From Suillus spraguei (lineage: Eukaryota > Basidiomycota > Agaricomycetes > Boletales > Suillaceae): a DNA stretch of 64,000 bases. This document shows, in pieces, positions 34,117 through 62,486 of the stretch. Position 1 is the first letter of the stretch. Every line of letters begins with the position of its first letter. The DNA is taken from the NCBI GenBank assembly GCA_016800925.1, contig JABCPU010000220.1, forward strand, positions 49,662-113,661, read 5' to 3'. The notes below the pieces were generated by a model that had not been told where the DNA came from, did not search any database, and worked only from the letters and a program-made list of their open reading frames with translations. A program made the translations under genes and the position numbers.

Positions 34117-34925
34117 TGTAAAGATACAACCTAGCCTGGGCTGTAGATAAACCACTGCCTAAACTAGTATGTGAGTCTTGCGCTCCATCTAGTCTGCTTC
34201 ACTTGTGAGAACAAGAGCATTCGACCCTAAAGGGGGATGCCTATTAGTATGGTCAAGTTCAAGTCTAACTTATGCGCAAAACAAGCATCGAGGTCAGCGG
34301 TAAGTTGCCGTGGTCAGCAATGATACCACCAGAACTAGTGTCATGCATAGCGGTGCTAGTGTGGTTGAGATATAGTCAGTAACAGTTGCATCGAGCGAGT
34401 GATGTCGAGCGATGATATCAGCGGTAGCAGTAAGGTTGCGAGCAGTGCAAGGAAACAGTAAAGTAGCAGTGCATGAGAAGTTCAGTCAAAATAACAGTCA
34501 AAGTCCAGCGGTATGCCAGTGGTAATGGAGAACGAGCATGATAGATTAACGAGCGATAAGGAAACTTTAAAGACCAAGTCCACTACTGGGTAGATCCAGA
34601 GCTAGACAATAATCCTGACCTATAGTACGTGCAATGGTGTAAAATCAGGTACTGTATTGTGTGGGGTATGCGGTGCTTATATCCTAAATCGTATGTACTC
34701 GGAATACTCTAGGTGAGATCAGTAGCGCTGGAGTGTAGTAACCGCCGTAAGTAAACATAGTGCGAGGCGCTGCGGCACAAGGCAACATGTAATTAGGCTA
34801 GCTGTGGAATCAGTGATAACGAACATAATACAAATGATGCACCAAATGGAGCTATGCGGACGCAGCAAGGACATGGAAGGGCATCAGTACATGGAACGTG
34901 GTGCGGCGGTCGGTACAGTGTGCGG
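34117..34925 (-). repeat. LTR2 fragment, minus orientation
   Basis: Begins TGTAAAGATACAACC, like the solo LTR at 18,007, and follows it for about 800 bp. It stops about 130 bp short and is joined head to head to an LTR2 in the opposite orientation at 34,926. Confidence 0.75.
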
Positions 34926-36506: not shown

Positions 36507-36508
36507 AC

Positions 36509-36525
36509 TGGAGCCCACTGCGAGG
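36509..36525 (+). promoter_or_regulatory. Probable primer-binding site
   Basis: TGGAGCCCACTGCGAGG begins two bases after the LTR2 end. A TGG start just after a 5' LTR is the usual place and form for a tRNA primer site. The tRNA was not identified. Confidence 0.55.
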
Positions 36526-36616
36526 GGGTCCTTTGGTATAGTTTTGTTCTTGTCTTAATCGCTTACCGCACAATTGTCACCACAGTTATTACCGCACTGC
36601 TACGCTACTGATAAGT

Positions 36617-38432
36617 ATGTCTGACAGATTTTGCATGCCACTGCACCGCACGGCAGCGGCACTGTACTTCGACGGCAACCCAAGAAAATTGCTAACATTC
36701 CTCACTACTGTAGATGAGCTGGCAGACTTGGCCGGCATTGCTGAGAAGGCACGCATCAAGGCGGCTATACACTACGCAAATCCTGACGAAGCAGAAGTAT
36801 GGGCATGTCTTGACGAACACAACGGTAACAGCTTCATAGACTTCGCTAACGCTATTTGCACTTGTACCCAGAATGTGGTCCTACTACATTCAACCGCACA
36901 GTTACCGCTGAAGCAGTTGCTCCGCTGGCAGACCCCTATCAGGGAAACACTATTGAGCACTCTGATGCTGATGTACCACAACAAGTTACGGCATTGGAAA
37001 TCACTACCGCTGAGCAAGTATCGCTACCGCTCGAAGATACTGCACCACCGGCGGTTCAGCCATCACTAATGACACCAAGTACAGACAGCACTACACTACC
37101 TACGGCACTACCACACGAGGATACAGCATCTCTGCCAGTCCAAGCGCTCGACGAAAGTTTGTCCCTGAATGAAGCACGCTATACTAACGACACTACATTT
37201 TGCACCATTTATATAGACAGCGATGCATACCGCTTGCTAGAAGAAACAGATGAAACAGCAATTGACTTGGTTAGCACTGACATTTTACCGACAGAACTCT
37301 TGACGGTCACGGAGCATACATGCTCTCAAGATGAAGTACCACAGACTGCTAGCGCTGATAGTGAAGAAGTTATAGAAGTATCACTGGAAAGGTATAGTAT
37401 AGTAGAAGTGCCGACACATACTGCAGAAGCAAGGTTTACTGCTCAGACTGTTACTGCACGTTTACCGCTGACACCCAAAGAAATGTTCACCACAGGAGCT
37501 ATTCAGCTGAACTCACAGACTGCAAGTGCCTACTGCCATGTGTTGACCGCTGCGTTAGTATGCAAAGATGATGGTCTTACCAGGCCATACTGCATTCCTA
37601 GCCTTACTGTGGCTAGGAGGTTTATTATCGACTACCGGCATACGTTCTTGCAGCAGATGACAAAGTGTGGCCTACTGCCTGCTAGTTGTCCGCCAACTAT
37701 CGTCCCACAGTACCGCAGGCCATCACATGCTTGCATAGCGCTATGGCAGTACGAACACAGATCACGTGGTTTTTGTTGCAGAAGAAGAAGCTAACCCAAG
37801 AAGTCAAGCGTCAAAGACCCAAGCACATATACCCACCAGCGGAAACCCCAATGGCATCATTCATTACCCTACCGCCACTGACATTCGCTAATACCACCCT
37901 TGTTACTTGATCATAAAAACAAAGAAAAGAATACCGCACATGTACAATAGTCTCTGTTTTACCCCAGGTTTCGTCCGGCGATCAGTTTCACACTTTCAAA
38001 TGCATGCCCACACGGCATCACTTACATATGTTTAGTGCTAACGAGCGCACAGACTTTTATTACAGTACAAAGGACTATATCGATTGGACAAGGAATACCG
38101 TGCACCGCTAAAGTACTATACACCTTTTTCTTCGAACGCGTAGGCAGCACACCACGCCCATTGATTGATAAAGACAGGAGATATCACACCAAAGCTTACC
38201 ACGGCAGCAATACTGCAGGCATAGATGAAGACAGCACAATGAAGAAGACAAGACGAGCGGAACCTCACAACAGACTTCCAGTATCAGTTCAGTTTTTGTT
38301 TACCTTAGGCATCAAATGGACTATGACTGGCACTAGGACTTGGACATGGAGGCATTTGGACTTATTGGACCTCCCAAGGACTTAGGCATTCACACTGTGT
38401 TTTTCCTGGAGCCACCAGGACGAGCCCCTTGA
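36617..38432 (+). pseudogene. Gag-like coding remnant of LTR2 element, no pol
   Basis: The frame at 36,617-36,880 (LYFDGNPRKLLTFLTTVDEL, HYANPDEAEVWACLDE) resembles the N-terminal domain of fungal Ty3/gypsy Gag. A frame change near 36,860 leads to a Thr/Glu/Pro-rich frame to 37,794. Further coding-like pieces run to about 38,430, ending GLIGPPKDLGIHTVFFLEPP. No protease, RT or integrase follows before the repeat region begins at about 38,430. It is either a truncated copy or a gag-only, non-autonomous element. Confidence 0.55.
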
Positions 38433-39461
38433 GTGACAAACTCCGTACTATATGGATCACCTGACCCACATAATATCCCATCAAAGACGGGCCAGTGGAC
38501 CATGGGCCGAGGTTATGTATATCCTTGATGTTGACGGATGGGCTGGGGAGAATATTATTTCCGATGGAGATGGGTGGGCTGGGAGACTTGTATTTTCGGG
38601 AGAGACGGGTGGGCCGAGGGAAACATGATTTCTGATGTTGACGGATGGGCCAGGGGGATATCATCCCCGACAGAGATGGGTGGGCCCATCTGGGTAGTAT
38701 GTAGAGTAGGATATTATAGACAGCTGGGCTGAAGAGAGATGCAAGGCAAATATTATTGCATAGATGGGTGGGCTGAGGTAAGAGAATATTACATATACGG
38801 GTGGGCCAAGGGTGCAGTGAAATATTTATTGCATAGACAGGTGGGCTGACGTGGGGGAATTTTACATAGACAGGTGGGCCGAGGTAAAATATATTACATA
38901 TACGGGTGGGCCTAGATATGTATCATAAAGACGTACAGCTGATGTAGCCACCAGAAAATCAAACACATAGGATACATGCACCCCATGAGTGCATATACCT
39001 ACCATCGACCACCAAAATCTAAACCCTGAAGCACGAAAACCTGAATTCACCATGTCTGACATTCATCGATAATTGAGGTGCTGGGTGCCGGGTGCCAAGT
39101 CCTGAATCCAGGAACTTGAAACTGGAGATTCAAACTAGATATTTCCTGAATTCCGGATACCTGGACACCCAAAACACAACACACAAGGTGAAAGATTTAA
39201 AGTCCATGTGTCGAGTCATCTAGTGCCGAGTGCCGGGTGCGGGTGCAGAGTACCGAAACTAGAAACTAGAAACTAGAAACTTGAGATTCAAGACAAAACA
39301 GACATCTACCAAAAATGTGTGGATCAAAGTTTTGTTGTTGCCTGACATGCGTCTGAGTCCCGAGGACCGAACCCCAAAATTGTAGACTACCAGATTTCGG
39401 GATTCAGGGTTCGGCACTCGAGATTTGAGATTTGAGATGAAAAAGATATCTACCAAAAATG
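38433..39461. repeat. Short-repeat region outside the left arm
   Basis: Many copies of a short unit around GACGGGTGGGCC / GATGGGTGGGCTG spaced about 35-60 bp apart (38,535-38,915), then a stretch rich in GTGCCGGGTGC and GAACTTGAAACTGGAG-like words. The same GGGTGGGCC unit continues inside the arm at 39,560-39,880. Such arrays may be subterminal repeats of the KDZ transposon. Confidence 0.55.
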
Positions 39462-39934
39462 CACATATTACAGTGAACTATCTCTGTATTATACGAGTGA
39501 ATGGACGTGCATAATATCCTATATGATACGGGCCAGCGGACCATGGGCCCATGGTAGAAATATCCTCGTTGATGACGGATGGGCCGGGAGGAATATTATT
39601 CCCGATGACAGTGGGTGGGCCCATGCAAGGAATATGTAGAGTAGATGAGTGGGCCGATGTACATGAATATCCGGTAGACGGATGGGCTGAGGTAGTTGGA
39701 TATCATGTAGATGGGTGTATCAAGGTAGATGTGTATCAAATAGACAGGTATGTGAAGGGTACTTGTTATCACATACACGGGTGGGCCCAGACACATATTA
39801 AATTAGATGGGTATTAGACGGGTGGGCCGAGGGTGGTATAAAATATAGACGGGTGGGCCCATGTGTATGATAATGGTAGACATGACGGAGCTGAGGGAGT
39901 TGCATATCATCTGAATCAGAGGAGGTAATAAATT

Positions 39935-40480
39935 ACAGTTACTGAGTTCCGGGAGCAGCAGGTGCTGTCTTGACATGGCCTTTTATGGCGCTTAGGTTGT
40001 CTTGTAGAATGTGGAAACTGGGGTGCGAGGCTTGTGTTGCCCTACAAGACACCCAGCTCCGACCCCCGAAAATCAGATGAAGCATACCAAATTCCGAGTT
40101 CCGAGACCCGGGTCTCGACACATTATTGAGTCAATATGAGACACCCAGTTCCGACCCCCAAAATTTGAGTGAAGCATACCAAGTTCCGGGAGCAGCAAGT
40201 GATCTCTTGAAATGGCCTTTATGGCATTTAGGTTGTCTTGTAGAATGTGGAAAGCGGGGTGCAAGGCTTGTGTTGCCCTACAAGACACCCAGTTACGACC
40301 CCCGAAAATCAGATGAAGCTTACCAAGTTCCGAGTTCCAAGTTCCGAGACCCAGGTCTCTGCTTGACATGGCCTTTTATGGTGCTTATGTTGTCTTGTAG
40401 AATGTGGACACCAGGGTGCAAAAGTGGTTGCCCTATGAGATGCCAAGTTCTGAACCCGGGTCTTGACAAATGAATATCAG
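39935..40480. repeat. Degenerate tandem repeats, left arm
   Basis: Units of about 185-190 bp contain GTTGTCTTGTAGAATGTGGA, TTGCCCTACAAGACACCCAG and CCGAGTTCCGAGACCCGGGT, in about three copies. Open frames across it are by-products of the repeat. The mirror copy lies at 57,050-57,595. Confidence 0.7.
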
Positions 40481-40657
40481 ATATCCAGCACACTTCCAAT
40501 CATCTGGTATTTCATTGAGCAATGGATGATAATACAGCTTTGAAAGCCAACATCATCCAAGGTTCCCTTATCTGATCCTCGCTATCTCCACCCCCTTTAA
40601 CACCAAGGTCTGGACATCCAGCATTCAGTGTCTGATTTCCCAATATCAACTTCCAAC

Positions 40658-41872
40658 ATGAACACTTCTTCCATGTCCACTTGTGACATAAAAATCTGGC
40701 GCACTTGGGCCCTGACCATCACTCATGAAGCAGGGGCATATACCGAACAAAAATTCAATGCAGAGAAGACTGGAGGAGAACCAGTTATACCTTCTCTGAA
40801 CCTGGACACTGATCTGGTGATGGCGTGCGATCGCTTGGCTGATGTACTCATAAGGGCATATAAAAATCCCAGTGGGTCTTCCTGCAGATGTTGAAAATGT
40901 GTTTGATCATTCAAATTCCTTCATGACAGTTAAGATGCAGATTGATATTGCAAGATATAGCAAATTGATATCCCCAAAGAACACTGGGCACAAAGTTGGT
41001 GGACAAACCTGCCACAATTATTGATGTTTCCGGTACCATCATCACATGGTACCTTCTGGACGCCCTGACAGAGACCACCCAGGTGCGTAATGTGTAGATT
41101 GTTACTCAATGGATATTGAATATCAAATGGTACCTACAGAAGGAAATCAGGGCAGCCACCGATTTGCTGGGTCCAAGCCTCAAAAAAAGTGTAAAGGCTG
41201 ATGGCAATTGGCAATATAATCAAGAATGGTTCAAACAGGGCTCGGAAAATGTTGGGTCAACTCCCGGATGCATCAATTTATCTCCGGCATGGTTTCAACA
41301 GGGCCATGAGGTAGGATGTAATGAGATGGTGATTTCTGGAGTCAAACTCACCAATCCCATAGAATCTGTCAGATCCGGAGGTATCTGCATCATTAAAGGG
41401 ACCCTCCTCTGAGAATATCCTGAAAGCTATTGCAAGGCCGGCAGCCATCACATTGGCGGCACTCAGGGTCATGCATCCTCAGCAGTACTTTGCAGGGTTA
41501 CGAGCATTGTCACACCTCAGAGATAAGGCACTGAGCAAGGAACTGCCACAGATGCCAGAGACCCTGCAGTACTGGGCATCCATGTTTAACACCCTCTCCA
41601 TCATTTCCAATCGGGAAACCCCCAATCATCAAGACCATTTATTGATTCCTGAATGCTTTGATATTCTCACCACCATGGGGAACTATTCTAATGCTCGGAT
41701 GAGTATGCCAAGCCTTCAGCTGGAATTCAGGTATGATTCCGGCTGTATGATTGCATTTTCGGGAAGAATTGTGAGACATGGGGTTGATGGAGTGGAAGGG
41801 GATCAGATTGCTTGGGCATGGTATATGAGGGATTCTGTGCACATTTATGCCGGGGTTCCCTCATGTGGATAG
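40658..41872 (+). CDS. TET/JBP-type 2OG-Fe(II) dioxygenase, left-arm copy
   Basis: TET/JBP enzymes oxidise 5-methylcytosine or thymine in DNA using Fe(II) and 2-oxoglutarate. Coding pieces: 40,658 onward (IKIWRTWALTITHEAGAYTE); about 41,000-41,080 (DKPATIIDVSGTIITWYLLD); 41,140-41,311 (GPSLKKS, PGCINLSPAWFQQGHE); 41,372-41,872. Introns include 41,081-41,139 and about 41,312-41,371. The last exon carries the double-stranded beta-helix core: NRETPNHQDH, with Fe-binding His (41,627) and Asp (41,633); GNYSNARMSMPSLQLEFRY; the distal His in GRIVRHGV (41,777); and AWAWYMRDSV. The residue just before IAWAWYM, where the 2OG-binding Arg is usual, is Gln (41,804-41,806). The first exons are uncertain, and a frame change near 40,865-41,000 may be an intron or a break. 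Confidence 0.75.
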
Positions 41873-41999
41873 GCTAGGGTCGAAGGCCACATACTAACCA
41901 TGGTGTGAAAGATGAAAGAAGTTGAAAGAGTTGTTACCCATGTTAGTAGCAACACACGAATACCATGTACCAATTAGAGCATCAACAGTTCTGGAACTC

Positions 42000-43400
42000 A
42001 AGTCGGAAGTTGAGTTCCATGAATTGAGTCCCTAACTCTGAGTATCTCAGGACTCGGGACTCGATACTTGAAATTTGGGACTCAATGATTGATAGTCCAA
42101 ATTCAGGCTTGACACTCAGGACTCAGCAAAGTGTGAGGCAGCACAATGTGAAACAACAGACTTTGATCCACACATTTTGACTGCTGAACACCGAACCCTG
42201 GCAGCCGGCACTCGGGACTCGGGACTGATACCAATGTGAAAAATATGAATTCACATATAGTGAGTGCCGAACCCCAAACTCCGGCAGCCGGAACTTGGGA
42301 CTCAGCACCCAGAACTCGGGACTTGGGACTCAGAATAATGTGCAAGTTATTGATCCACACATGTTGAGGGCTGAACCCCGGCAGCCGGCAGTCGGGACTC
42401 GGGACTCAGAACAATGTGAAAGATATTGATTCCCACATGTAAAGTGCCGAATGCCGAATGCCGAACCCCGGAACCCGGAACCCGGAACTCGGCACTTGGC
42501 ACTCAGAATCATGTGAAATTTAGTGAGCCACATATGTTGAGGGCTGAACCCCGAACCCCGGCAGCCGGCAGTCGGGACTCGGGACTCAGAACAATGTGAA
42601 AGATACTGATTCCCACATGTAACATGTAAATTGCCAAACCCCGAACCCCGGCAGCCGGAACTCGGGACTCGGGACACACAACATTGTGAATGATATTGAT
42701 GCACACATGTTAAGTGCCGAACGCCGACTGCCGAGCCTCGGCACCTGGAACTCGGCACTCGGCACTCAGAATAATGTGAAAGTTATTGATCCACACATGT
42801 TGAGTGCCGAACACCGAACTCCGGCAGCCGGAACTCGGGACTCACAACATTGTGAATGACATTGATCCACACATGTTAAGTGCCAAATGCCGAATGCTGA
42901 GCCCCAGCACCTGGAACTCGGCACTCAGAATAATGTGAAATTTATTGATCCACATATGTTGAGTGCCCAACCACGAACCCAGCCGGAACTCAGGACTCAC
43001 AACATTGTGAATAATATTGATGCACACATGTTAAGTGCCAAACGCCGCCGAGCCCCGGAACCCGGAACTTGGCACTCGGCACTCAGACTAATGTGAAAGT
43101 TATTGATCCACACATGTTGAGTGCTGAACCCCGCACTGTCGCACAGATATCTATTTCGTCTCGAACCTTGAGTGCTGAACCCCAAACCATGAAATCCGGT
43201 AGTCCACAATTTTGGGGTTCAGGGTTCGGTACCTAAGATTCGTGACTTGCCACTCAGAAATATGTGAGGCAATCTTGCCATTCGGAAGTCGAGTCCCATG
43301 AATTGAGTCCCAAACTCTAATTACCATGGCACTCAGGCATTCGCCACTCAGCATTTGGGATTTAGGACTCTACATCTGGATCTTGACATCCAGTCCTCGA
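42000..43400. repeat. Long tandem array, left arm
   Basis: About ten diverged units of 75-125 bp, each with a TGATCCACACATGTTGAGTGC-like word, a GAACCCCGGCAGCCGG-like word, GGGACTCGGGACTCAG and AATAATGTGAAAG. Its many open frames are by-products. The mirror array is at 54,120-55,520. Confidence 0.85.
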
Positions 43401-43484
43401 AATCCGGAACAAAATATTCGGGAGTCAAGACAATCATTTGGACGGAATAAAATATTTTACATCATGTATGAAATGAAGACCATT

Positions 43485-44287
43485 CTAATCTAAACACAGT
43501 GAAGAGGACTCCACTCCCCTGCCTCTCTTCAATCTCTGTAGCATGTCAGTGTACATCTTCACCTCTGCCATCTTCTCATGGATACCCTCATCTTGCTCCT
43601 CCATCAATGCTACCAGGTGTGCTCGAATCATCTTAAGTCCCATCACTGATGGGCCTGATGAGTCATTTACCTCCTCAGGAAGAACCAAGCCATCATCCTC
43701 AACTCCATTTTCCATCCAATGCTGGTAGTGAACGACACAGGACCTCATGATCTGACCCCATTGCCATGGTTCATTCAGAATTTCGGTGTGTCCCATCCAC
43801 CATGGAGTATCATAGCTGGGAATAATCCAGGATGGATGTCCCAGAGCTGCGACATCATCAAACTGACATAGGTGGGATGAAAAGATGTGGTCTGGAACAG
43901 TGTTCCAGGTGAGCATGGGATACAATGTCAGGACATGAGCGACGGGGCTTGGAACAACAGAAACGATGTTCCTTGCAGCTGAGTACTGCAGGAGTGGCAT
44001 AACAAATGTCTGTTGGAAATCTCAGCATTGCCCAAAAAAGTCAGCCAGTCATCCAGTAATCAGTCACTTACATTGATCTCCCATTGCAGCCCGGCTTTAA
44101 AGTACATGATCCAGGCAGAAGAGGGAGGGTTGTTAGCAGCCTCCATCTGATATTTAGAGATACATGTGCGGATGCATGATGCAGCCATATTCAAAGTACA
44201 AGAAATATCTTGAAGGTTCAGCTTCATGGGTTGCCAGTGATGTCCAGTATTTGGAGTGCCAGATGTGGATGCAGGAGTTTCAGGCAT
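43485..44287 (-). CDS. Unknown protein in the KDZ arms, left copy
   Basis: Two exons (44287-44072 and 44009-43485) joined by a 62-nt GT...AG intron give 246 residues. It has no recognised domain. The N-terminal half is helical (LQDISCTLNMAASCIRTCI). The middle is rich in Trp and Pro (SWIIPSYDTPWWMGHTEI). The C-terminus is a predicted amphipathic helix (HLVALMEEQDEGIHEKMAE). It lies 170 nt downstream of the KDZ transposase stop on the same strand and is intact, which suggests an accessory transposon protein. An identical copy is at 53,233-54,035. Confidence 0.65.
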
Positions 44288-44458
44288 GGCTAATGCAAGA
44301 GTGTGATGCTGGGAATGACACTGACAGATGGTGAAGAGGTGATGATATGAGTCACTGATGGATGGATTAGAAATTCAAACTCCGACATGGGCTGACCCAG
44401 ACAATTCCCAGGACTCAATGTTTGGGTGTCAAATATGCATTTCATTAGCAAAACAAAT

Positions 44459-47400
44459 TCATTCATGTGCACCATCGATCAACGAGGGCTGCAGGTCTTG
44501 AAATGCTGCCTGTGCATCCTGAGCTAGTAAGGAATAAATTTGAGACTGCCTTCTGGCATAGCATGCATGACCTGGAAGTTGTTTCAACAATGATTCCTGC
44601 ATCCGGGCACCCCATTGGGTTGCCTTCCACAAGAAAAAGTTGCACGTCCAATCCATCTCTGATTGCACCAATGATATTTCTTCCATCCATCGATCCCGTA
44701 GTGCCTTTGCCCGAAGCCAATGAACTCGGTAAACTTGGGATGGGTCCTGTCAGCTCACCACGGGATATATCAAGCATGCCCAAACTCACATTCCTCATTC
44801 CACAAATTTTCTGGACCCTCCATATCGACTTCCACTGACCAGAACCAAGCGAGGGACTCATTTCACTGACATCGGGCATTTGGATCGCCGACGGCAGTGC
44901 TGATTTTGAGCTGCTCGCAAAGCAGGGGTTTGTATTTCTGAAGCTGGTCTGGCCCCAGCTCAAGTTGTATCATTTGCTTCCTGGTTTTTCTATATATACT
45001 GGCATGTAGGGATACTGCCTGCTGCACTGATGTCACCTGGGACCACACTCGAGTTTTTAGGGCTTGAGATTTGGCTTGCCTAACTGTTGTTCGGAACAGG
45101 ATAGCCTTGTTGCACAAGTGAATGCGGAGATTGTGCAGGGCATCATTGGCCTGCCCTTCACGAAGCGAGATCTCCAACGGAATCAGATCCTCTGCCATAC
45201 AGCGTCTGCAATGTTCAACCCCAAGGTTTGATGGCAATGGAATTATGGTGAGCTCAGGTGAGTTTGTCCATGCATCAGATGTCTCGGTGAAATCTGCTGG
45301 GTCATCATCGATATCATCAAGAATATCTATGTTCAAGTCATCAGGATCGTCATCTGCATCAAATCCCTCTCCCAGATGCATAAGAGCAGACTGAGTGAAT
45401 TCATCTATCTGGCCTTGGATACGATCGCGTTGCCATGCGATATCTAATCTCTGTGTCTCCGTTGATCGTCTTCCAATTCTGCGGACCTTGATGAGCAATG
45501 CAATTTGAGCCTCTTCAATTGCCAACCCAATGGATATCCATGTTGCCACAGATCTGCGAGAGGGTGCTGCATGATGGGCATTACCTGCTTCTAGTAGTCT
45601 AAGCTCAATCTCCTTTTTGCTTGGTGCTAAGTGAAAAATGAATGCGGAGCTCCACGGAGACAAAGAATGTCAACTTACCCTTCTTGATATTGATTTCATA
45701 TAAATCCATCACCGCAGGATCCCTGCTTCTCTTGGACTGAGCGACCATCTCACTGGCTAACCATTGTGTCTTTAAATTGCCGGGTGCAGCTTCATCAAGT
45801 CTGTCGAAAGCCTTGCCACTTTCAGCGATGCCATTCTTCGCCAGCTTGTATTTCCGGCAAAGAGTGTTACGAACTGGGGTGGCATCACCAGCGACAGTGA
45901 AAAGACACAGGCGGTCTGCTGGGAAGTTCTACAATGTCCAGAAGAGGACAAGGTGAAAGTACAAGGAACGTGTTCCGAGTACAATCAAGGGTTCGGCCTC
46001 AAAGACAAGTCTAAGAGGTCCTACAAGAATAGAGACTAAGGCTAAGGAGTGCTTAGACTTAGAGACGATTCAAGACGACTTAGGTTGGAGACCTAAGCGA
46101 AGGAGATTCCAGGTAAAACCCAGTAAGATTAAAGTACCGAATCTACTACAAGTACAACGTGCTTAAATAGACCAATATGTGCGCACGGACCAAGAGAAAC
46201 GTGGGAAAGTAAGTGTGTATTCAAATAAGGAAGGCAACTATAGTACAGATGCGTTGAGCATATGAGTCAGAGTCATGTGACATGATATACAAGTAAGGAA
46301 ACAAAGAGAAAATGAATAGGGGCACGTACGATTGTAACAAAGAGTCCTTTTCATGCGGATCATCTTGCAGAAATTGGAATCGTTCATCTGATAATCAAGA
46401 CATTCCTTTCAGTGCGGGGATGACATTCCCCAAGCAGCAGGGGAAATCAGGTTGAGACGTGCCCATAGGGTCTCCATGATTTCTCCATCAATCTGGCCAA
46501 TGCCTTCAATAAAATTCGAAGCATATTGGACATAGCAACTGTCCTGATGTCCATGCACATGCCACAACCCGATTCCAGGAATGATGGTCAGTTCCGGTAC
46601 CATGTCAAGGTATTGGCTTCGATCCACCCAGACACGAAAGTGCTTGTTGTATTGACAATTGATGTCATAGAAGGTGACAGCCCTGGTAATGCCTTCCATG
46701 TTGTGCTGGGCAGCCTCACAAATGGCGTAGTCCATGTTCATTTGTCTGCAAATGATGCATGGTCAACTAGTGAATGTCGATTGGCATGTTTGGCTTGCCT
46801 TTCCCCTTTCTGAAAATCAACAATCAAGTGAGGGACGAAGCACCCCTGCCGGGCACAGGCAACTCCTCCGATTCCTGTGGACTTGAGCTTATGCCACGCC
46901 GCATTTGCTTGATTGACCACCCGGTGATTGTTGCAGCTTAATTTTTCCACCGTGTCAGCAGCCTCCGCAAGATGCATTTTATACCTGTCCTTTCTGACCA
47001 TGAATCCAAGCCCATCTGAAAGCCAAACTTCATCGAGGGGATTAATGGGATGCAGGTGTTCAGCTTTGAAATTTCCGTCCATCACAAATGACCGGGTGTA
47101 TTTCCAGCTTGGAGTTCTTATCATCGTTGAGTTCACTTCAGTATTGAACATGACTCACTCATCAAGTGATTCATCCCCTGACAAAGATACATTAATCCCA
47201 GGCTGAGGACATGCCGGGCAAAATAATGCAAGATCTCCTGCGTTCGGGATGTCAGAATGATGGCCATAGCCATGCCATTTCATGGTCTTCAACTGCCTCC
47301 ACTGTCGAGTGACTCTCATGAGCTCTCTGTATTGATCCTTGCCACGGCCTGTGTCAACATAATGTCCTTTAGATGAAGCACAAATAACATTACCAGAACA

Positions 47401-48249
47401 AGGTGTGGAAACATGCTCGAGGTCATTCACCAGAGCTTACTGTAATAGTTCATTGCAGAGGTGCTGCATTCAAGGTTGTCCAATAGAAAATCATCCAGCA
47501 CTCCGAAGGTAAACACGGTCTTCGGCCTGTTAAACGATGCAGGGAAAAATCCATGCCAAAACATTTGAATGTCCGGACTCATGGCATTTGGACAATCACA
47601 GCATCGAACCTCGAGGCGGTGAACTCTGGACTTGTCAACGATGACCATGGTGTTTTCCTTCGGCTGGAACTCAGGTCCCGACACAGACGGAAGATCTTCG
47701 GGCTCAAGCTGGTCTTCAGGTTCATCTCCTTCAAACAAATCCCACCAATCTGTGAGCACCGGACATTGCTTGCCATCATGCCCGAGGTGTATGGTGAGTC
47801 CGACATGAGCGAGACAACTCTGCTCGAAGAATTGACCATTCCATTGACTGATCCAGTGGAAAGGATTGCAACGATGTTGACTCCTGCAACAGCCCGTGCA
47901 ATAGAGAGGCTCGCCAAGACAATCTTGACATTTGTAGACCCCATCCTGGTGGCAGATGATGCATCTCCTGTCTTCTGGTGGAGCTTCTCGATCCAGGAGG
48001 TGATGCAGATATGATTCCTGCCTTGGCAGCCATTGCCTGAGGTAGTCATTTTGACTCTGCATTTTTTATATTTAGCTATAGTTTGAATGACACTCCAACA
48101 TTTAACATGAACTTGCCATGGTTTTTGGGAGTTGCAATGGCTCAAATGAGCCTTGGTCTTGCTTGTAAGTATTGTCAGGAAAGTCATCCCAAGGAGGTGG
48201 TGCCTGAACAGGCTGAAGTGTTGGTGATTCTGGGGGAGAGTGAGGCATG
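44459..48249 (-). pseudogene. KDZ transposase with CxC2 domain, interrupted
   Basis: KDZ transposases are DDE enzymes of Kyakuja-Dileera-Zisupton DNA transposons. Exons: 48249-48117, 48056-47394, 47337-47159, 47107-46799, 46745 to 45,680 (interrupted by LTR1 at 45,865-46,339), about 45,620-44,800, then the tail to 44,459. The CxC2 cysteine cluster is at CIICHQDGVYKCQDC...CRSQHRCNPFHW. Catalytic motifs: FYDINCQYNKHF (Asp), WHVHGHQDSC, and DGEIMETLWARL (Glu). The C-terminal helical tail ends WKATQWGARMQESL. Stops at 47,427 (TGA after TGG), 46,409 (TGA) and 44,863 (TGA) fit CGA-to-TGA change. The introns at 48,116 and 46,798 start with GC. The LTR separates ATG...CKMIRMKRTLC from RKYKLAKNGI. Confidence 0.88.
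45865..46339 (-). repeat. Solo LTR1 inside KDZ transposase, 475 bp
   Basis: TGTTACG...TGTAACA with 5-bp target duplication AAGAG on both sides (45,860-45,864; 46,340-46,344). Skipping it and one AAGAG restores the transposase frame, so it inserted into a gene that was already carrying introns and, probably, stops. Confidence 0.92.
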
Positions 48250-48608
48250 GACCTGTAGGCTTGTCATCTTGTGCTTGCAAGTGGGACCTTGACCCAAATC
48301 TTTCTACCTTTGCTGCCCCTTGCTTCTACCCTGTGGGATTTTTGCAATGGGGTGCATCTACCTATCTTCATCTTATTTTCTAATGCTAATTTTGCAAGCA
48401 AAGCATCTGCTCAGGTGGAATGAATTTTTATTACATTGTGGTGTCATACTGTCCTGCCGACTCATTACAAATTTATGTCCATTTATGGCTTTGGGACCAA
48501 TATAGCTCAATTAAGCTACTGTTAGGCTTTTCTCAAAGTTCAACTTCTGACAATTCGTTCATACTTCCACCTTGCTTATCCTCAGCCCATTCTGCAATTT
48601 GATTCACC
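48250..48608. promoter_or_regulatory. Divergent promoter region of KDZ element
   Basis: A 359-bp spacer separates the start of the minus-strand KDZ transposase from the plus-strand 563-codon gene. It is AT-rich toward 48,400-48,600 and has no other gene. A shared bidirectional promoter is inferred from layout only. Confidence 0.4.
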
Positions 48609-50524
48609 ATGGCAAGGACGGGTCATTCCACTCACTTGACTTCCGGCAGAAATAGGGCACGTCAACCACAGACACAGAAGCTCACGGAAAACGAAATTTC
48701 GGAGTTGAAGAACTACCTTCCTGAGTGGACCGCGGCCAAAAGGGGTGAGAAGCGAGGGGTTTTCACTGCAATTGCCAGGGCAGCCAGGTTGTTTGCTCCT
48801 AAAGTCAACCAAGGACAATGGAAAAAGAGGAAGCAGGTGATGCGTCTTCGTTGTGTTGAAAAACTACAATTTTAACATCTTATTCTTCCATCAACTCTCA
48901 GATGTATAAGACTTGGTTGTTCAACAACAAGAAAAGGAAGGAAAGGAAGGACATGATAAAGTATGGGAGGAAATGGACGCCTAGGATGGTGGTCTACCAG
49001 CAGAAGCACGAAGAGGTGCTAAAGAGGATTTAGGATGAGTCTGGGGCAAAGCTGGGAGATCCCGGTATGTTCAAACATTATCAGGGGGCTGTGAAGAGAG
49101 TCATGGCTGAATTGGACGATGACAAGTTGGAGAAGGCAAAAGAAACAGCGGAAGAATGGTCAAACAGCTTTCCTCCTCCAGAGATACAAGCAGAAGTTGC
49201 TCATAAGAAGGGACCGGCATATATGGAGCACTTTTCGAAAGAGATGTGGAGGCAATGCAGGATGAGAGTTTTTGTGTTGTCAGCTTGGAAGAATGAACAG
49301 GGAGAGGTTCTGTTCGGGATGTAAGTCAATTGTGTCCGTCATCGCCGATCTTCGATCTCAATATATGTGTGCAGGCATGATGATAATGAGGCATTAGGAG
49401 ATGGGGACAGCTTCATGAAGACAAAGGACTGGGAGGACATTGAGCCAGTATGGCAGGAGTACGCCCAGGAACAGTTCGGTGAGTGTTTGAACTTTGGATG
49501 CAAGAATGAATTTGTTGATCATCACAATGATAGGTGCCGGGGCACAGGACAGAGCACGACAGGTCAAGGGAGGTCGCAAAAGAGTCAGAAAACCAGCTTT
49601 TGAACTCGACACAGTTGGGGATGGGATGCCGTTGCTTCCAGACATCACGGAAACAAAACTTGAGGAGAAGAAAGCCATAGTCAGGGTATTTCTTACATCG
49701 CACTACAGTGAGTCTGTCGTGGCAACATCCGAGATGTTGCTGAATGCATGGACACAGGAATATGTTCCGGGAATGACAAGGCTGTTGTGCCATGGAGTGC
49801 CCTCATACAAAGTCAGGATGACTTTGTGGCAAGGAAGTATATTCTGGTGGATATTGACCTGAAGGAGCCTTCGAAGTTGCAAAACTGGGACACGACGGCC
49901 TTGCTCAATTTCTGGTATGCTCAGCAGGAAACAGGAAAAGATTCAACATTCCTGTTCAAAGCATGGAAGAACAAAGATGGGGACATGGTACCATCTGTGG
50001 TATCCGGCAAGTCGCCATCTCGTCTGACTCGTAAAGTGAGAATGCAGAAGAGTGGAACTCTCCGAAGGCCCCGGGATCCATCAACCGAAGCCGAGAGTGA
50101 TACCAACAGTGAAACTCATGACAAGGAGGATGACATTGATGATGACTCGGCTGATGGTCAATCCCCGCTGAAGAAACCCAGACAAATAGCACACCCATCT
50201 TCAGCACCCAAGGAGACAGAAGTTCCATGTTCAATGCTGGAGCCTTGCCCGGCCAGGCCGGCCAAGGCAGGTGCACTTTTGACATCACGGATGGGCGACC
50301 TCCTGGCCGGGTTCACTGAGGAAGTGGAAGAGAGGAACACATCGCCGGAACCAAGGAGTATACAGGGCAAGAAAGCTGTCATTGAACCATCCGCAAGGAC
50401 CACCCGGAGTAAGTCTCAAAAGCCAGTAGACAGTACACTGGTCAGCCTTGAGGAGTTGATGTACGGTAGGCTCCGGAAGATGGCCATGACGCTGTTGGTA
50501 ATGGTCCAGGCGATCCAGAATTGA
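48609..50524 (+). CDS. Unknown KDZ-associated protein, one in-frame stop
   Basis: Five exons keep the frame: 48609-48836, 48902-49320, 49375-49478, 49534-49707, 49758-50524; about 563 residues. TAG at 49,031-49,033 interrupts KRI-stop-DESG, where CAG is likely ancestral. The N-terminal part is basic and helical (ELKNYLPEWTAAKRGEKRG; MYKTWLFNNKKRKERKDM; YGRKWTPRMVV). The centre holds MFKHYQGAVKRVMAEL, EMWRQCRMRVFVLSAWKN and a late segment AVVPWSALIQSQDDFVARKY. The C-terminal 180 residues are acidic and disordered (SDTNSETHDKEDDIDDD). I recall similar proteins next to KDZ and other Agaricomycete transposons but cannot name a function. It is divergent from the transposase and probably belongs to the same element. 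Confidence 0.7.
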
Positions 50525-50540
50525 TTCAACTTCAAGAAAA

Positions 50541-51301
50541 TTAGCAGAAAGATACATGATGAACAATTAAATGCTCACATTCTGTTTGATCATATGACTC
50601 TAGGGGCATGAACTCCATAAGCATGGCATGCAGGTCTTCATTGCTGAGTTCCGGTATGGGGGACTGACATTTAGGAGGTGTTGCATGTGCTTGGGACATC
50701 ACATCAACAATAAAAATGAGATGGTATGAATGAACTCACCTGGAATTGCTATTCCTGGGATAGCCGGAGCATCAATCTCAACATCAGCACATTCTGGTGC
50801 TTCATCACAATCAATAAGATCATCATCAGGCCCTAGGTACAAGTCCAGATCGTTGAACAAAGGCAGTTCCTCAGGCTGAGCCGGGTATAAATGATCTGGA
50901 TGGATTGAATGAACATCCAAAGTTGGATTATCTAAATGTGAATTGAGAAACCTACCAGGAACTGCATCCAAGACATCCGGAACACCTGATGACCCAGAAT
51001 CATAGTCGATCTCATCATCCGGCCCAAGGTATACATCTTCACATGCATCTAATAAATGTCCAGTCAATTGTAAGATATACTCAAAGCAACACATACCTGA
51101 TGAAATCCGGGACTCAGTCTCATCATCCGGCCCAAGGTATACATCATCCAGTGCATCTGGTCCATCTCCGGTCAATTGAGAGCTGTACTGAAAGCACAAC
51201 ATACCTAGTGAAATCCGGGACTCAGTTGAGTCATCCACATCCATTGAGTTGTATTCAGTGACCAGAGGTTCATAAAATCTGACTGCTGGTTGAGATCTCA
51301 T
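50541..51301 (-). CDS. Acidic protein with YLGPDD repeats, unknown
   Basis: Starts MRSQPAVRFYEPLVTEYNSM at 51,301. The motif YLGPDD occurs three times. Short GT...AG introns (about 51,197-51,152, 51,098-51,052, 50,957-50,898 and 50,738-50,700) lie between similar exons, two of them closely alike, which suggests exon duplication. The last exon encodes PELSNEDLHAMLMEFMPLES and stops at 50,541. Exon limits are approximate. It is convergent with the 563-codon gene, 16 bp apart. It is strongly acidic and probably disordered; no function is recognised. Confidence 0.55.
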
Positions 51302-51519
51302 GATGTCTGATCAACTGATCAAACTGATTGATAACTGATAACTTCGAAGTTGAACACATGGCTGGCAATGGCCGAAAGTTGAACCACGACCAAACAAAGA
51401 CAAACAATCAATGCTTATCAAGATCGTCCTTCAATTGTCTGGTTTCTTTTGAAACTTCATCCTAGTGATAACATATTTCAAACTTATCTCAAGCTTTCAC
51501 ATCTTTCAACTCAATATAA

Positions 51520-52657
51520 ATGTCTACTCCAGTTCAAACCTCTTTGGCCGGTCTCAAGGCAACCACTGCTCAGATTGTGGGCATCATCGCCGGGGCGCGG
51601 CTCATGCCTGCCGGCACTGGCCAAGCCCACCTTGCTCTGACAGCACAAGTCACTAATCTTGTGGTAAGTACCATTCATGTGTTAATTTTACATTTGGTTT
51701 TTCTAAGATCTGTTTAGGCTGAGATAGTCAGGGAGCATGAGAAAGGGCCTTACATGCCCGGCATCATTGCATCCTGCTCCAAGGAGTTGATGAGAGTCAG
51801 GTCCATGACTCCCCGGGTGTGGCCCAACTGGCACAGCATCGGCCATGACGACCCCCGGATGTTGAAACACTCCTGGCACAGCAAGATTCGCGCCTGGGAG
51901 GCGTTAGGTGACCATTCAGGTGATCTCCCTGTCATGCCTAACCCTTCCATTGGCCCAATTACTGTGGACCTTCCCTCCCCACCTGTCGTTGCCGGCAATG
52001 TCACTGGTTCTTCCACCCATGCCACCTCCGAGCTCTGGGACAAAGGAAAAGGTAAGGCGGTTGTTGCTGTCCCTGCTGTGACCACACCCAAGGCACAGTC
52101 CCGTGGGCGCAGCAAGACAATCACTGCCCCCAAGACACCTGCACCTGCACCAGCTTGTGAGTCACCCCAATTGTCTATGACCATCTGACCTTATCTTTCA
52201 CTTAGCTATTCTGTCTTCAAGCGCCGCAGTGCCTCATCTGGCACTCGATGTGCCCATGCCGGATCTCCATTCCATGGCAATTGCAATTTGGGATGGTGCC
52301 ACTCGAATTGCTCTTCTTGAGGCTCGTGTTGCAGAGCAGGATGGTAAGATTGATACCCTGCAACACCTCCATGAGGGCCTTCGTCGCAAAGTCATGGACC
52401 GGCACCCTTCAAAGGATATCCTGTTCCGAACAACAGTTAGGCAAGCCAAATCTCAAGCCCTAAAAACTCGAGTGTGGTCCCAGGTGACATCAGTGCAGCA
52501 GGCAGTATCCCTACATGCCAGTATATATAGAAAAACCAGGAAGCAAATGATACAACTTGAGCTGGGGCCAGACCAGCTTCAGAAATACAAACCCCTGCTT
52601 TGCGAGCAGCTCAAAATCAGCACTGCCGTCGGCGATCCAAATGCCCGATGTCAGTGA
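51520..52657 (+). CDS. Chimeric protein: unknown N-terminus fused to KDZ C-terminus
   Basis: Exons 51520-51663, 51718-52156 and 52206-52657 give 344 residues in one frame. Residues 1 to about 265 belong to a family common beside Agaricomycete transposons: KATTAQIVGIIAGARLMPA, then HEKGPYMPGIIASCSKELMR and RVWPNWHSIGHDD. A basic Ser/Pro-rich linker and a coiled coil (ATRIALLEARVAEQDGKIDT) follow. At 52,418 the right arm begins, and from ILFRTTVRQAKSQ on, the sequence is the KDZ transposase C-terminal segment in frame. The fusion ends at the TGA shared with the left arm. Whether it is expressed is unknown. Confidence 0.65.
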
Positions 52658-53061
52658 AATGAGTCCCTCGCTTGGTTCTGGTCAGTGGAAGTCGATATGG
52701 AGGGTCCAGAAAATTTGTGGAATGAGGAATGTGAGTTTGGGCATGCTTGATATATCCCGTGGTGAGCTGACAGGACCCATCCCAAGTTTACCGAGTTCAT
52801 TGGCTTCGGGCAAAGGCACTACGGGATCGATGGATGGAAGAAATATCATTGGTGCAATCAGAGATGGATTGGACGTGCAACTTTTTCTTGTGGAAGGCAA
52901 CCCAATGGGGTGCCCGGATGCAGGAATCATTGTTGAAACAACTTCCAGGTCATGCATGCTATGCCAGAAGGCAGTCTCAAATTTATTCCTTACTAGCTCA
53001 GGATGCACAGGCAGCATTTCAAGACCTGCAGCCCTCGTTGATCGATGGTGCACATGAATGA
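52418..53061 (+). pseudogene. KDZ transposase C-terminal remnant, right arm
   Basis: Mirror copy of 45,101-44,459. It contains the C-terminal helices of the transposase, including RDRWMEEISLVQSEMDWT, after an intron ending near 52,780. It has no catalytic domain. It carries the same premature TGA (52,655-52,657) as the left arm. Confidence 0.85.
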
Positions 53062-53232
53062 ATTTGTTTTGCTAATGAAATGCATATTTGACACCCAAAC
53101 ATTGAGTCCTGGGAATTGTCTGGGTCAGCCCATGTCGGAGTTTGAATTTCTAATCCATCCATCAGTGACTCATATCATCACCTCTTCACCATCTGTCAGT
53201 GTCATTCCCAGCATCACACTCTTGCATTAGCC

Positions 53233-54035
53233 ATGCCTGAAACTCCTGCATCCACATCTGGCACTCCAAATACTGGACATCACTGGCAACCCATGAAGCT
53301 GAACCTTCAAGATATTTCTTGTACTTTGAATATGGCTGCATCATGCATCCGCACATGTATCTCTAAATATCAGATGGAGGCTGCTAACAACCCTCCCTCT
53401 TCTGCCTGGATCATGTACTTTAAAGCCGGGCTGCAATGGGAGATCAATGTAAGTGACTGATTACTGGATGACTGGCTGACTTTTTTGGGCAATGCTGAGA
53501 TTTCCAACAGACATTTGTTATGCCACTCCTGCAGTACTCAGCTGCAAGGAACATCGTTTCTGTTGTTCCAAGCCCCGTCGCTCATGTCCTGACATTGTAT
53601 CCCATGCTCACCTGGAACACTGTTCCAGACCACATCTTTTCATCCCACCTATGTCAGTTTGATGATGTCGCAGCTCTGGGACATCCATCCTGGATTATTC
53701 CCAGCTATGATACTCCATGGTGGATGGGACACACCGAAATTCTGAATGAACCATGGCAATGGGGTCAGATCATGAGGTCCTGTGTCGTTCACTACCAGCA
53801 TTGGATGGAAAATGGAGTTGAGGATGATGGCTTGGTTCTTCCTGAGGAGGTAAATGACTCATCAGGCCCATCAGTGATGGGACTTAAGATGATTCGAGCA
53901 CACCTGGTAGCATTGATGGAGGAGCAAGATGAGGGTATCCATGAGAAGATGGCAGAGGTGAAGATGTACACTGACATGCTACAGAGATTGAAGAGAGGCA
54001 GGGGAGTGGAGTCCTCTTCACTGTGTTTAGATTAG
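53233..54035 (+). CDS. Unknown protein in the KDZ arms, right copy
   Basis: Exons 53233-53448 and 53511-54035, 246 residues, identical in translation to the left copy at 43,485-44,287. The intact frame in both copies means duplication was recent or the copies are kept alike by gene conversion. Confidence 0.65.
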
Positions 54036-54119
54036 AATGGTCTTCATTTCATACATGATGTAAAATATTTTATTCCGTCCAAATGATTGTCTTGACTCCC
54101 GAATATTTTGTTCCGGATT

Positions 54120-55520
54120 TCGAGGACTGGATGTCAAGATCCAGATGTAGAGTCCTAAATCCCAAATGCTGAGTGGCGAATGCCTGAGTGCCATGGTAAT
54201 TAGAGTTTGGGACTCAATTCATGGGACTCGACTTCCGAATGGCAAGATTGCCTCACATATTTCTGAGTGGCAAGTCACGAATCTTAGGTACCGAACCCTG
54301 AACCCCAAAATTGTGGACTACCGGATTTCATGGTTTGGGGTTCAGCACTCAAGGTTCGAGACGAAATAGATATCTGTGCGACAGTGCGGGGTTCAGCACT
54401 CAACATGTGTGGATCAATAACTTTCACATTAGTCTGAGTGCCGAGTGCCAAGTTCCGGGTTCCGGGGCTCGGCGGCGTTTGGCACTTAACATGTGTGCAT
54501 CAATATTATTCACAATGTTGTGAGTCCTGAGTTCCGGCTGGGTTCGTGGTTGGGCACTCAACATATGTGGATCAATAAATTTCACATTATTCTGAGTGCC
54601 GAGTTCCAGGTGCTGGGGCTCAGCATTCGGCATTTGGCACTTAACATGTGTGGATCAATGTCATTCACAATGTTGTGAGTCCCGAGTTCCGGCTGCCGGA
54701 GTTCGGTGTTCGGCACTCAACATGTGTGGATCAATAACTTTCACATTATTCTGAGTGCCGAGTGCCGAGTTCCAGGTGCCGAGGCTCGGCAGTCGGCGTT
54801 CGGCACTTAACATGTGTGCATCAATATCATTCACAATGTTGTGTGTCCCGAGTCCCGAGTTCCGGCTGCCGGGGTTCGGGGTTTGGCAATTTACATGTTA
54901 CATGTGGGAATCAGTATCTTTCACATTGTTCTGAGTCCCGAGTCCCGACTGCCGGCTGCCGGGGTTCGGGGTTCAGCCCTCAACATATGTGGCTCACTAA
55001 ATTTCACATGATTCTGAGTGCCAAGTGCCGAGTTCCGGGTTCCGGGTTCCGGGGTTCGGCATTCGGCATTCGGCACTTTACATGTGGGAATCAATATCTT
55101 TCACATTGTTCTGAGTCCCGAGTCCCGACTGCCGGCTGCCGGGGTTCAGCCCTCAACATGTGTGGATCAATAACTTGCACATTATTCTGAGTCCCAAGTC
55201 CCGAGTTCTGGGTGCTGAGTCCCAAGTTCCGGCTGCCGGAGTTTGGGGTTCGGCACTCACTATATGTGAATTCATATTTTTCACATTGGTATCAGTCCCG
55301 AGTCCCGAGTGCCGGCTGCCAGGGTTCGGTGTTCAGCAGTCAAAATGTGTGGATCAAAGTCTGTTGTTTCACATTGTGCTGCCTCACACTTTGCTGAGTC
55401 CTGAGTGTCAAGCCTGAATTTGGACTATCAATCATTGAGTCCCAAATTTCAAGTATCGAGTCCCGAGTCCTGAGATACTCAGAGTTAGGGACTCAATTCA
55501 TGGAACTCAACTTCCGACTT
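54120..55520. repeat. Long tandem array, right arm
   Basis: Mirror of 42,000-43,400 with the same roughly ten diverged units. It lies between the 246-codon gene and the TET/JBP gene, whose 3' ends face each other. Confidence 0.85.
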
Positions 55521-55647
55521 GAGTTCCAGAACTGTTGATGCTCTAATTGGTACATGGTATTCGTGTGTTGCTACTAACATGGGTAACAACTCTTTCAACT
55601 TCTTTCATCTTTCACACCATGGTTAGTATGTGGCCTTCGACCCTAGC

Positions 55648-56862
55648 CTATCCACATGAGGGAACCCCGGCATAAATGTGCACAGAATCCCTCATATACC
55701 ATGCCCAAGCAATCTGATCCCCTTCCACTCCATCAACCCCATGTCTCACAATTCTTCCCGAAAATGCAATCATACAGCCGGAATCATACCTGAATTCCAG
55801 CTGAAGGCTTGGCATACTCATCCGAGCATTAGAATAGTTCCCCATGGTGGTGAGAATATCAAAGCATTCAGGAATCAATAAATGGTCTTGATGATTGGGG
55901 GTTTCCCGATTGGAAATGATGGAGAGGGTGTTAAACATGGATGCCCAGTACTGCAGGGTCTCTGGCATCTGTGGCAGTTCCTTGCTCAGTGCCTTATCTC
56001 TGAGGTGTGACAATGCTCGTAACCCTGCAAAGTACTGCTGAGGATGCATGACCCTGAGTGCCGCCAATGTGATGGCTGCCGGCCTTGCAATAGCTTTCAG
56101 GATATTCTCAGAGGAGGGTCCCTTTAATGATGCAGATACCTCCGGATCTGACAGATTCTATGGGATTGGTGAGTTTGACTCCAGAAATCACCATCTCATT
56201 ACATCCTACCTCATGGCCCTGTTGAAACCATGCCGGAGATAAATTGATGCATCCGGGAGTTGACCCAACATTTTCCGAGCCCTGTTTGAACCATTCTTGA
56301 TTATATTGCCAATTGCCATCAGCCTTTACACTTTTTTTGAGGCTTGGACCCAGCAAATCGGTGGCTGCCCTGATTTCCTTCTGTAGGTACCATTTGATAT
56401 TCAATATCCATTGAGTAACAATCTACACATTACGCACCTGGGTGGTCTCTGTCAGGGCGTCCAGAAGGTACCATGTGATGATGGTACCGGAAACATCAAT
56501 AATTGTGGCAGGTTTGTCCACCAACTTTGTGCCCAGTGTTCTTTGGGGATATCAATTTGCTATATCTTGCAATATCAATCTGCATCTTAACTGTCATGAA
56601 GGAATTTGAATGATCAAACACATTTTCAACATCTGCAGGAAGACCCACTGGGATTTTTATATGCCCTTATGAGTACATCAGCCAAGCGATCGCACGCCAT
56701 CACCAGATCAGTGTCCAGGTTCAGAGAAGGTATAACTGGTTCTCCTCCAGTCTTCTCTGCATTGAATTTTTGTTCGGTATATGCCCCTGCTTCATGAGTG
56801 ATGGTCAGGGCCCAAGTGCGCCAGATTTTTATGTCACAAGTGGACATGGAAGAAGTGTTCAT
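55648..56862 (-). CDS. TET/JBP-type 2OG-Fe(II) dioxygenase, right-arm copy
   Basis: Mirror copy of 40,658-41,872 with identical translated segments: the HxD pair in PNHQDH, the distal His in RHGV, and Gln in place of the usual Arg (codon at 55,714-55,716). The shared substitution predates the duplication or has been spread by conversion. Transcription runs from the outer end of the arm toward the spacer, as in the left arm. Confidence 0.75.
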
Positions 56863-57049
56863 GTTGGAAGTTGATATTGGGAAATCAGACACTGAATGCT
56901 GGATGTCCAGACCTTGGTGTTAAAGGGGGTGGAGATAGCGAGGATCAGATAAGGGAACCTTGGATGATGTTGGCTTTCAAAGCTGTATTATCATCCATTG
57001 CTCAATGAAATACCAGATGATTGGAAGTGTGCTGGATATCTGATATTCA

Positions 57050-58000
57050 TTTGTCAAGACCCGGGTTCAGAACTTGGCATCTCATAGGGCAACCACTTTT
57101 TTTTTTGCACCCTGGGGTCCACATTCTACAAGACAACATAAGCGCCATAAAAGGCCATGTCAAGCAGAGCCCTGGGTCTCGGAACTCGGAACTCGGAACT
57201 TGGTAAGCTTCATCTGATTTTCGGGGGTCGTAACTGGGTGTCTTGTAGGGCAACACAAGCCTTGCACCCTGCTTTCCACATTCTACAAGACAACCTAAAT
57301 GCCATAGAGGCCTTTTCAAGAGATCACTTGCTGCTCCCGGAACTTGGTATGCTTCACTCAAATTTTGGGGGTCGGAACTGGGTGTCTCGTATTGACTCAA
57401 TAATGTGTCGAGACCCGGGTCTCAGAACTCGGAATTTGGTATGCTTCATCTGATTTTCGGGGGTTGGAGCTGGGTGTCTTGTAGGGCAACACAAGCCTCG
57501 CACCCCGCTTTCCACATTCTACAAGACAACCTAAGCACCATAAAAGGCCATGTCAAGACAGCACCTGCTGCTCTGGGAACTCAGTAACTGTAATTTATTA
57601 CCTCCTCTGATTCGGATGATATGCAACTCCCTCAGCTCCGTCATGTCTACAATTATCATACACATGGGCCCACCCGTCTATATTTTATACCACCCTCAGC
57701 CCACCTGTCTAATATAATATACTGTACAACACCCTCGGCCCACCCGTCTAATACCCGTCTAATTTAATGTTTCTTGGCCCACCCGTGTATGTGATAACAA
57801 GTACCCTTCACATACCTGTCTATTTGATACACATCTACCTTGATACATCCATCTACATAATATCCAACTACCTTGGCCCATCTGTCTACCAGATATTCAT
57901 GTACATCAGCCCACTCATCTACTCTACATATTCCTTGCATGGGCCCACCCGCTGTCATTGGGAATAATATTCCTCCCGGCCCATGGTCCACTGGCCCGTA
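57050..58000. repeat. Short-repeat region, right arm outer end
   Basis: Mirror of 39,560-40,480: units with TTGTAGGGCAACACAAGCCT at 57,235-57,500, and GGCCCACCCGTCTA units at 57,660-57,960. It differs from the left by scattered transitions and small indels, including a run of nine T at 57,100-57,108. Confidence 0.75.
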
Positions 58001-58132
58001 TCATACGGGATATTATGCACGTCCATTCACTCATATAATACAGAGATAGTTCACTGTAATATGTGCTTCAACAGATAAGCAATCAGTGCCTTTTTTTGTC
58101 CTATGAATTTGTCCTACAAAAGTGTCTCAGTC

Positions 58133-62119: not shown

Positions 62120-62486
62120 TCATGAGAGTGATTTTGTGAAGATGTCGGTGACCATATCATGTGTAGGTATGTATGGGATGTTAATGGTGCCATCGTTTAC
62201 AAGATCTCGAATGAAATGGTAGCGCACACGAATGTGCTTCGCACGATCATGGAACTGGGGGTTTTTCGTTAGGGCACAGCTTCCATTATTGTCTCCATAC
62301 AGAGTGGTAGGTGTGATGAAGGATGAATCAAGTCCAAAATCGTGCAATAATTGACTAAGATGAATTTGTTCGCGCGCAGCATTCGAGAGGGCAATATATT
62401 TGGCTTCCATTGAGGACATGGCTATGACTGACTGTTTTTGAGAACACCAGCTGATGGGGGAGCCAAAAAGGTAATAGATGTAGTGT
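62120..62486 (-). pseudogene. Ty1/copia RNase H C-terminal fragment
   Basis: Translation YLFGSPISWCSQKQSVIAMS, then SMEAKYIALSNAAREQIHLS, LYGDNNGSCALTKNP and AKHIRVRYHFIRDLV, is the classic end of copia Pol (RNase H), including the SSxEAEY-like and DNxxAxxLxxNP motifs. The 5' part of the element is missing beyond 62,486, where unrelated LTR-like sequence begins. Confidence 0.88.

Follow-up and report, generated by a model that had tools for sequence, protein, structure and literature searches.

We describe a KDZ transposon copy of Suillus spraguei, an ectomycorrhizal bolete, in which one transposase region lies between two inverted arms, each bearing a TET/JBP gene. It is found in a stretch of 64,000 nucleotides, hereafter the window, which corresponds to contig C393, positions 49662-113661, of an 86 Mb assembly in 1256 contigs; the right edge of the window is the contig end. 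The palindromic anatomy is genuinely present in the assembled sequence. The copy belongs to a family of KDZ transposons that have one arm and carry a TET/JBP gene, and whose nearest known kin are the TET+ Kyakuja elements. We give about even chances to the window copy being a one-off inverted-arm derivative, formed in the genome by end joining or template switching.

The mirror-image structure

BLAST comparison of the window with itself returns a long inverted pair, 39461-45108 against 58066-52412, with 97.9% identity over 5693 columns. Arm 1 (39462-45103, plus strand) has at its left tip one of the two termini of the family, the T end; arm 2, inverted (52417-58065, minus strand), has a T end at its right tip, and a 7.3-kb centre (45104-52411) separates them. 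Divergence is confined to the outside of the arms. Their inner zone, 40420-45103 on the plus strand, is the exact reverse complement of 52417-57100 over 4684 bp, with 0 differences, and includes a minisatellite (42161-43141, mirrored in arm 2 at 54379-55359). In the outer ~0.95 kb (39462-40420 versus 57101-58065), the 921 aligned bases differ by 33 substitutions (25 transitions), and there are four indels of 36, 2, 39 and 6 bases. Chance is excluded as the origin of this mirror-image structure, and an assembly origin keeps a sizeable probability, weighed below. The start of the arm had been placed at 38433 in an earlier note on this DNA. It is in fact at 39462, and the adjoining stretch (38422-39461, plus strand) is a separate fragment of the other end of the family, the K end (terminus GAGCCCCTTG...). 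This fragment is also present on contig C862, from which it differs by 12 substitutions in 1046 bases.

The earlier note took the element for a KDZ transposon whose two arms each bear a TET/JBP gene, and proposed a profile search of both TET/JBP frames. That search was positive: Tet_JBP (PF12851) was detected in both arms at 54.3 bits (Pfam, cut-off 34.9), and KDZ and CxC2 domains in the centre. The arm 1 gene (40923-41905, plus strand, the region matched by relative P0003) is spread over several frames, probably separated by introns, with a premature stop near its end; the arm 2 gene (55615-56597, minus strand) is identical, so that both copies stop 12 residues early. H-x-D and the second H are kept. 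At the position aligned with an arginine of the CcTet enzyme, which would correspond to the 2-oxoglutarate-binding arginine of TET2, the window genes encode glutamine. This position holds arginine in 11 of 16 aligned relatives, glutamine in four (P0005, P0013, P0018, P0026) and a gap in one; at four other loci, seen incidentally, it is glutamine at three (L016, L018, L042) and arginine at L017. Glutamine is thus common in the family, where it may be tolerated. A doubled dose of active oxidase from the two arms, as had been imagined, is doubtful, because both copies end early and carry glutamine where 11 of the 16 relatives, as well as CcTet, have arginine.

In the centre, CxC2 (PF18803) scores 80.9 bits (Pfam, cut-off 27) and KDZ (PF18758) is found in two neighbouring frames, at 78.9 and 48.6 bits (cut-off 26.6). 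The transposase gene region extends over 44863-48065 on the minus strand, with CxC2 at 47430-48065 and the KDZ domain at 46412-47154. Its 3' part enters arm 1: the KDZ reading frame 44863-45669 (minus strand) crosses the arm edge at 45103, so that arm 2 opens on a leftover of the 3' end of the transposase. This leftover alone points to the copying of half an element, and not to a palindrome by design. The KDZ frame is broken in the window by a premature stop and by a 472-bp insertion (45866-46337, GTTAC...GTAAC, with a 7-bp duplication AAAGAGT), whereas the C1035 copy described below is open across the same stretch. The insertion is missing at the corresponding place in C1035, C185 and C862. 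A second copy of this 472-bp GTTAC...GTAAC type of element lies at 16953-17431 of the window, with 88.8% identity to 45866-46337.

An ordinary element with one arm and two unlike ends

About 160 copies of the family are present in the genome: pattern counts gave 158 sites for the arm and 162 for KDZ, and 291 for the T end. One mismatch was allowed in these counts, the reversed-pattern controls gave 0 each, and the first 100 places of each type were listed. The copy on C1035 could be followed end to end, from a K end at 4060 through the minisatellite, the centre and a single arm to a T end at 22110, its TET gene sitting between the two ends. Its centre matches the window from 52411 down to 45104, with in addition a stretch of about 909 bp and one of 678 bp that the window is without. 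The ~909-bp stretch (L043, C1035:7859-8767), missing from the window copy at 52066-52073, is flanked by an 8-bp repeat in both C1035 and C185; C862 carries the stretch too. The C862 copy has one arm, with a K end near 7565 and 580 bases (20001-20580) unread, and on C185 an ordinary K half is joined to the centre. The listed arm sites number 78 as far as contig C747, and 59 of these have a KDZ at its ordinary place; as far as C435 they number 38, of which 22 have a T end at its ordinary place. Both counts are lowered by contig ends and by the limit of 100 listed places. The idea of a transposon built as a palindrome does not hold for C1035, nor for C862 bar its 580 unread bases: both are one-armed, with two unlike ends. 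The search of the genome for single-arm and double-arm copies, suggested earlier, thus recovered the former, and one KDZ between two arms was seen only in the window (100 of the 158 arm sites listed).

The two tips differ, K reading GAGCCCCTT... and T reading CACATATTA.... Behind them, both ends run on as CAGTGA, and in C1035 the two ends, in inverted orientation, are 68% alike over ~546 columns. Twenty-five distinct T-end places carry 23 different flanks by eye (those shared are L031/L039 and window-left/C862), which indicates that the T end is the true terminus of the transposon. Target duplications of 7 bp, in the same register, were seen by eye in two of the eight copies with both ends read (GTCCTTC on C236, TCCGTCA on C337), and none was seen by eye in the other six (C858, C113, C540, C594, C1035 and C862). 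Among these eight, C540 and C594 have a K flank in common and so do not count as independent. The eight do not include C559 and C140, which yielded no T end. At L032 (C676:19375-24106), the T ends of two transposon copies face each other, and the matches are only about 30 bp apart.

Origin of the window copy and its surroundings

The window copy is bounded on either side by a T end with an intact tip, and has nothing of the K half that lies beyond the place of 52411 in C1035 and C185. The inner junction between centre and inverted arm (52411-52417) reads ...CACCCTTCA|AAGGATATCC. Past the place of 52411, the C1035 centre continues differently, and the arm edge there is ...CAACAAGGCTATCC; about 2 bp at most are shared. 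A 331-base junction query had its full match only in the window, among the best 40 of 363 candidates, and the other 39 of these 40, the window's arm 1 included, match the arm side only. The target duplications that the earlier note had proposed to look for at the outermost ends were not seen: by eye, the window's outermost T ends are flanked by AAAAATG and CTTCAAC, with no 7-bp duplication, and neither the T...T nor the K...T pairings of the window have a target duplication.

These features could be explained as follows. The K-end half of an aberrant copy would have been lost, and the broken end of its centre (52411) fused to the interior of a reversed arm, the two having hardly any bases in common. 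Given the exact identity of ~4.7 kb with arm 1, this part of arm 2 would have been copied from arm 1, or converted to it. Beyond this part, the sequence would be that of another copy, 3.6% diverged, with its T end and its flank. We infer that end joining or template switching took place in the genome, for instance during repair after excision. The unlike ends of the family, the one-armed relatives, the junction found only in the window and the sharp-edged exact tract argue for such a derivative, and two options already raised, a failed transposition product and an inverted duplication, fit. With a T end on both sides, its transposase gene broken and its oxidase genes doubtful, the resulting unit is expected to be inert, or to be moved only in trans.

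The C862 copy is informative on the left side of the structure. It shares window 34389-40895 (96.4% identity), including the K fragment 38422-39461 adjoining the T end, and past this shared stretch continues as a one-armed element; collinearity with the window stops at 34389. Within the exact tract, minisatellite scores are 1145 bits for C862, 1078 for L027, 878 for L017 and 768 for C1035, and lean, short of proof, towards the 4684-bp tract being of the arm 1 lineage.

Several points weigh against an in-genome derivative. The lead of C862 over L027 on which the arm 1 lineage rests is modest (1145 versus 1078 bits). The window centre is without the ~909-bp stretch carried by C1035, C185 and C862, and without the 678-bp stretch, whole in C1035 and C185 and partly present in C862; window and C862 are therefore not simple alleles. 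An assembler that enters a single stretch two times would also produce zero differences, minisatellite included. Arm 2 is followed by 5.9 kb up to the contig end, and a second inverted structure is found there (58132-60733). Finally, the T-end pairs of C294, C299, C306, C378 and C379, known by position only, could resemble the window. The status of C862 as a plain allele of the window was considered in its own right and is doubtful, given the end of collinearity at 34389 and the 909-bp and 678-bp differences between the centres.

A census of close copies (less than 25 kb apart) helps to place the window among its relatives. Among the first 100 of the 158 arm sites, arm pairs are inward on C108, C393 (the window) and C559, and outward on C417. 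C108 and C559 have their own KDZ for each arm; at the listed arm sites, one KDZ between two arms is seen only in the window. On C716, where one arm is listed for two inward KDZ sites, the architecture is ambiguous. Among the 100 listed T ends, 12 close pairs were found, four direct, two outward and six inward, the latter in the window and on C294, C299, C306, C378 and C379. The term one-off is thus a reading suggested by part of the copies. An excess of close inverted copies was considered (inverted orientation in 5/6 KDZ pairs and 4/4 arm pairs, among 100 listed sites each) and dropped as a claim, the pair numbers being too few.

The most serious competitor, less probable than a derivative formed in the genome and still quite conceivable, is an assembly chimera, in which the contig would unite, in opposite orientation, two one-armed copies from different places, with one arm stretch entered a second time. 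The perfect 4684-bp identity with its abrupt edge would be explained, and the contig end and the other inverted structure nearby speak in the same sense. Moreover, the same assembly holds KDZ copies as palindromes with almost no spacer on C108 (L071, C108:5600-9300) and C1069 (L072, C1069:22700-23900). The two halves of each are distinguished, near the centre, mainly by single-base indels; the few mismatches, 3 and 6, sit at the inner end, where the alignment fails. Such indels near a palindrome centre are what uncorrected foldback long reads look like, and these two palindromes are perhaps artefacts of this kind. The window differs from them: compared to C1035, no indel is present in 52066-52411 or inside the arm 2 edge, so that the consensus by the junction is without indel errors. 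In a plain foldback read, the 7.3-kb spacer would also be lacking and the two sides would have one and the same flank, whereas the T ends and flanks of the window differ. A simple foldback read, which fits C108 and C1069, is on these two grounds ruled out for the window. If the structure is not real, inverted structures in this assembly need read support.

Two close insertions in opposite orientation, followed by a deletion that took away the K half of each and the greater part of one centre, and by later gene conversion of 4.7 kb between the inverted arms, are unlikely. The flank of the right T end is indeed its own, as is the diverged outer 0.95 kb, and other close opposite copies exist, as seen in the census. 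However, three steps are required, the identity takes in the minisatellite and stops sharply, and no second K end is left to reveal a target duplication. As for a mature palindromic transposon with two T ends moving as a unit, we find it barely credible: both tips are intact T ends and five other inward T-end pairs are known by position, but the junction was recovered once among the best 40 of 363 candidates, no 7-bp duplication surrounds the T...T unit, the KDZ gene is broken, C1035 and C862 (bar its unread bases) are one-armed, and C185 has an ordinary K half on its centre.

The remaining features of the window are as follows. Divergent accessory reading frames lie at 48603-50524 (plus strand), the frames tested matching no Pfam family above cut-off, and a further accessory frame at 51718-52188 (plus strand) has no Pfam match. 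Arm 1 holds a gene without assigned function (43485-44374, minus strand), which appears as two adjacent frames, 44060-44374 and 43485-44021, with no Pfam match; its arm 2 counterpart in the reading-frame list is at 53146-54035 (plus strand). The structure at 58132-60733 is a separate transposon with 125-bp terminal repeats, itself inverted-duplicated (58257-59178 / 59359-60279, 99.7%), of which a copy on C596 (L052) has one arm. A dispersed repeat runs from 62484 to 64000, into the contig end, with more than 30 other places in the genome at 97-99%. Elsewhere, 7049-9311 and 25212-27416 form a direct duplication of about 2.2 kb (72-77% identity), perhaps of paralogous genes, and a 0.7-0.8-kb repeat is found three times (18002-18846, 34112-34926 and 35800-36506, the third inverted) with 84-89% identity.

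Comparison with known systems

Suillus being a bolete, the TET+ transposons of the Boletales are the first to be considered. In the sections of Kojima 2025 (PMC12730594) that we draw upon, TET+ Kyakuja alone are reported for this order, and the TET+ Kyakuja (KDZ) transposons of Agaricomycetes make 7-bp target duplications. The window family resembles them in having a KDZ transposase domain together with a CxC cluster (PF18758 and PF18803, each above its cut-off), and a TET/JBP gene related to CcTet, located inside the transposon ends in C1035. Duplications of the same 7-bp size were seen in two of its eight copies with both ends read. Differences are also found. Termini of the 5'-CA..TG-3' type are given for two Laccaria families in the same sections (PMC12730594), whereas the window family has CA at the T tip and GA at the K tip. 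TET+ Kyakuja are characterised by a lack of terminal inverted repeats; the tips of the window family are unlike, yet its ends are 68% alike as measured in C1035. The two T ends of the window copy also set it apart from these elements. The family is most like Kyakuja, and membership in Kyakuja proper is not claimed, because CA..TG is matched at one tip only.

The arm TET domain matches CcTet of Coprinopsis cinerea (PDB 7vpn, 7w5p; 8jkk) at 81.6 bits and shares with it H-x-D and the second H, but differs by the glutamine in place of arginine and by the early stop. No palindromic KDZ transposon or doubled TET gene was found in the literature searched, nor by a term search in the part of PMC12730594 covered. 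The searches made likewise listed no paper naming the Suillus spraguei assembly.

For the shape of the copy, the closest parallel is with the foldback-like DNA transposons of Drosophila, Galileo among them, for which aborted or switched repair is offered as a source of defective copies in the portion of PMC4168063 used here. Both have inverted ends that took in internal sequence, and in the window these long inverted ends include internal genes. Unlike Galileo (PMC4168063), the window structure was recovered once, in a family that is one-armed where read. Foldback derivatives would come as several copies with their own target duplications; the junction was found only in the window among the best 40 of 363 candidates, and no duplication was seen. 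That repair repeatedly yields double-T inverted-arm derivatives, moved in trans by intact copies and forming a foldback class of TET/JBP transposons, seems very improbable.

Comparing the copies defines the two termini of a high-copy family of Suillus that carries TET/JBP. Its ordinary element is of an already known kind, a TET-bearing KDZ transposon, and the double-T copy resembles in its form foldback-like derivatives, Galileo for instance; if real, it would be a very young rearrangement, showing how large KDZ transposons decay or yield foldback derivatives.
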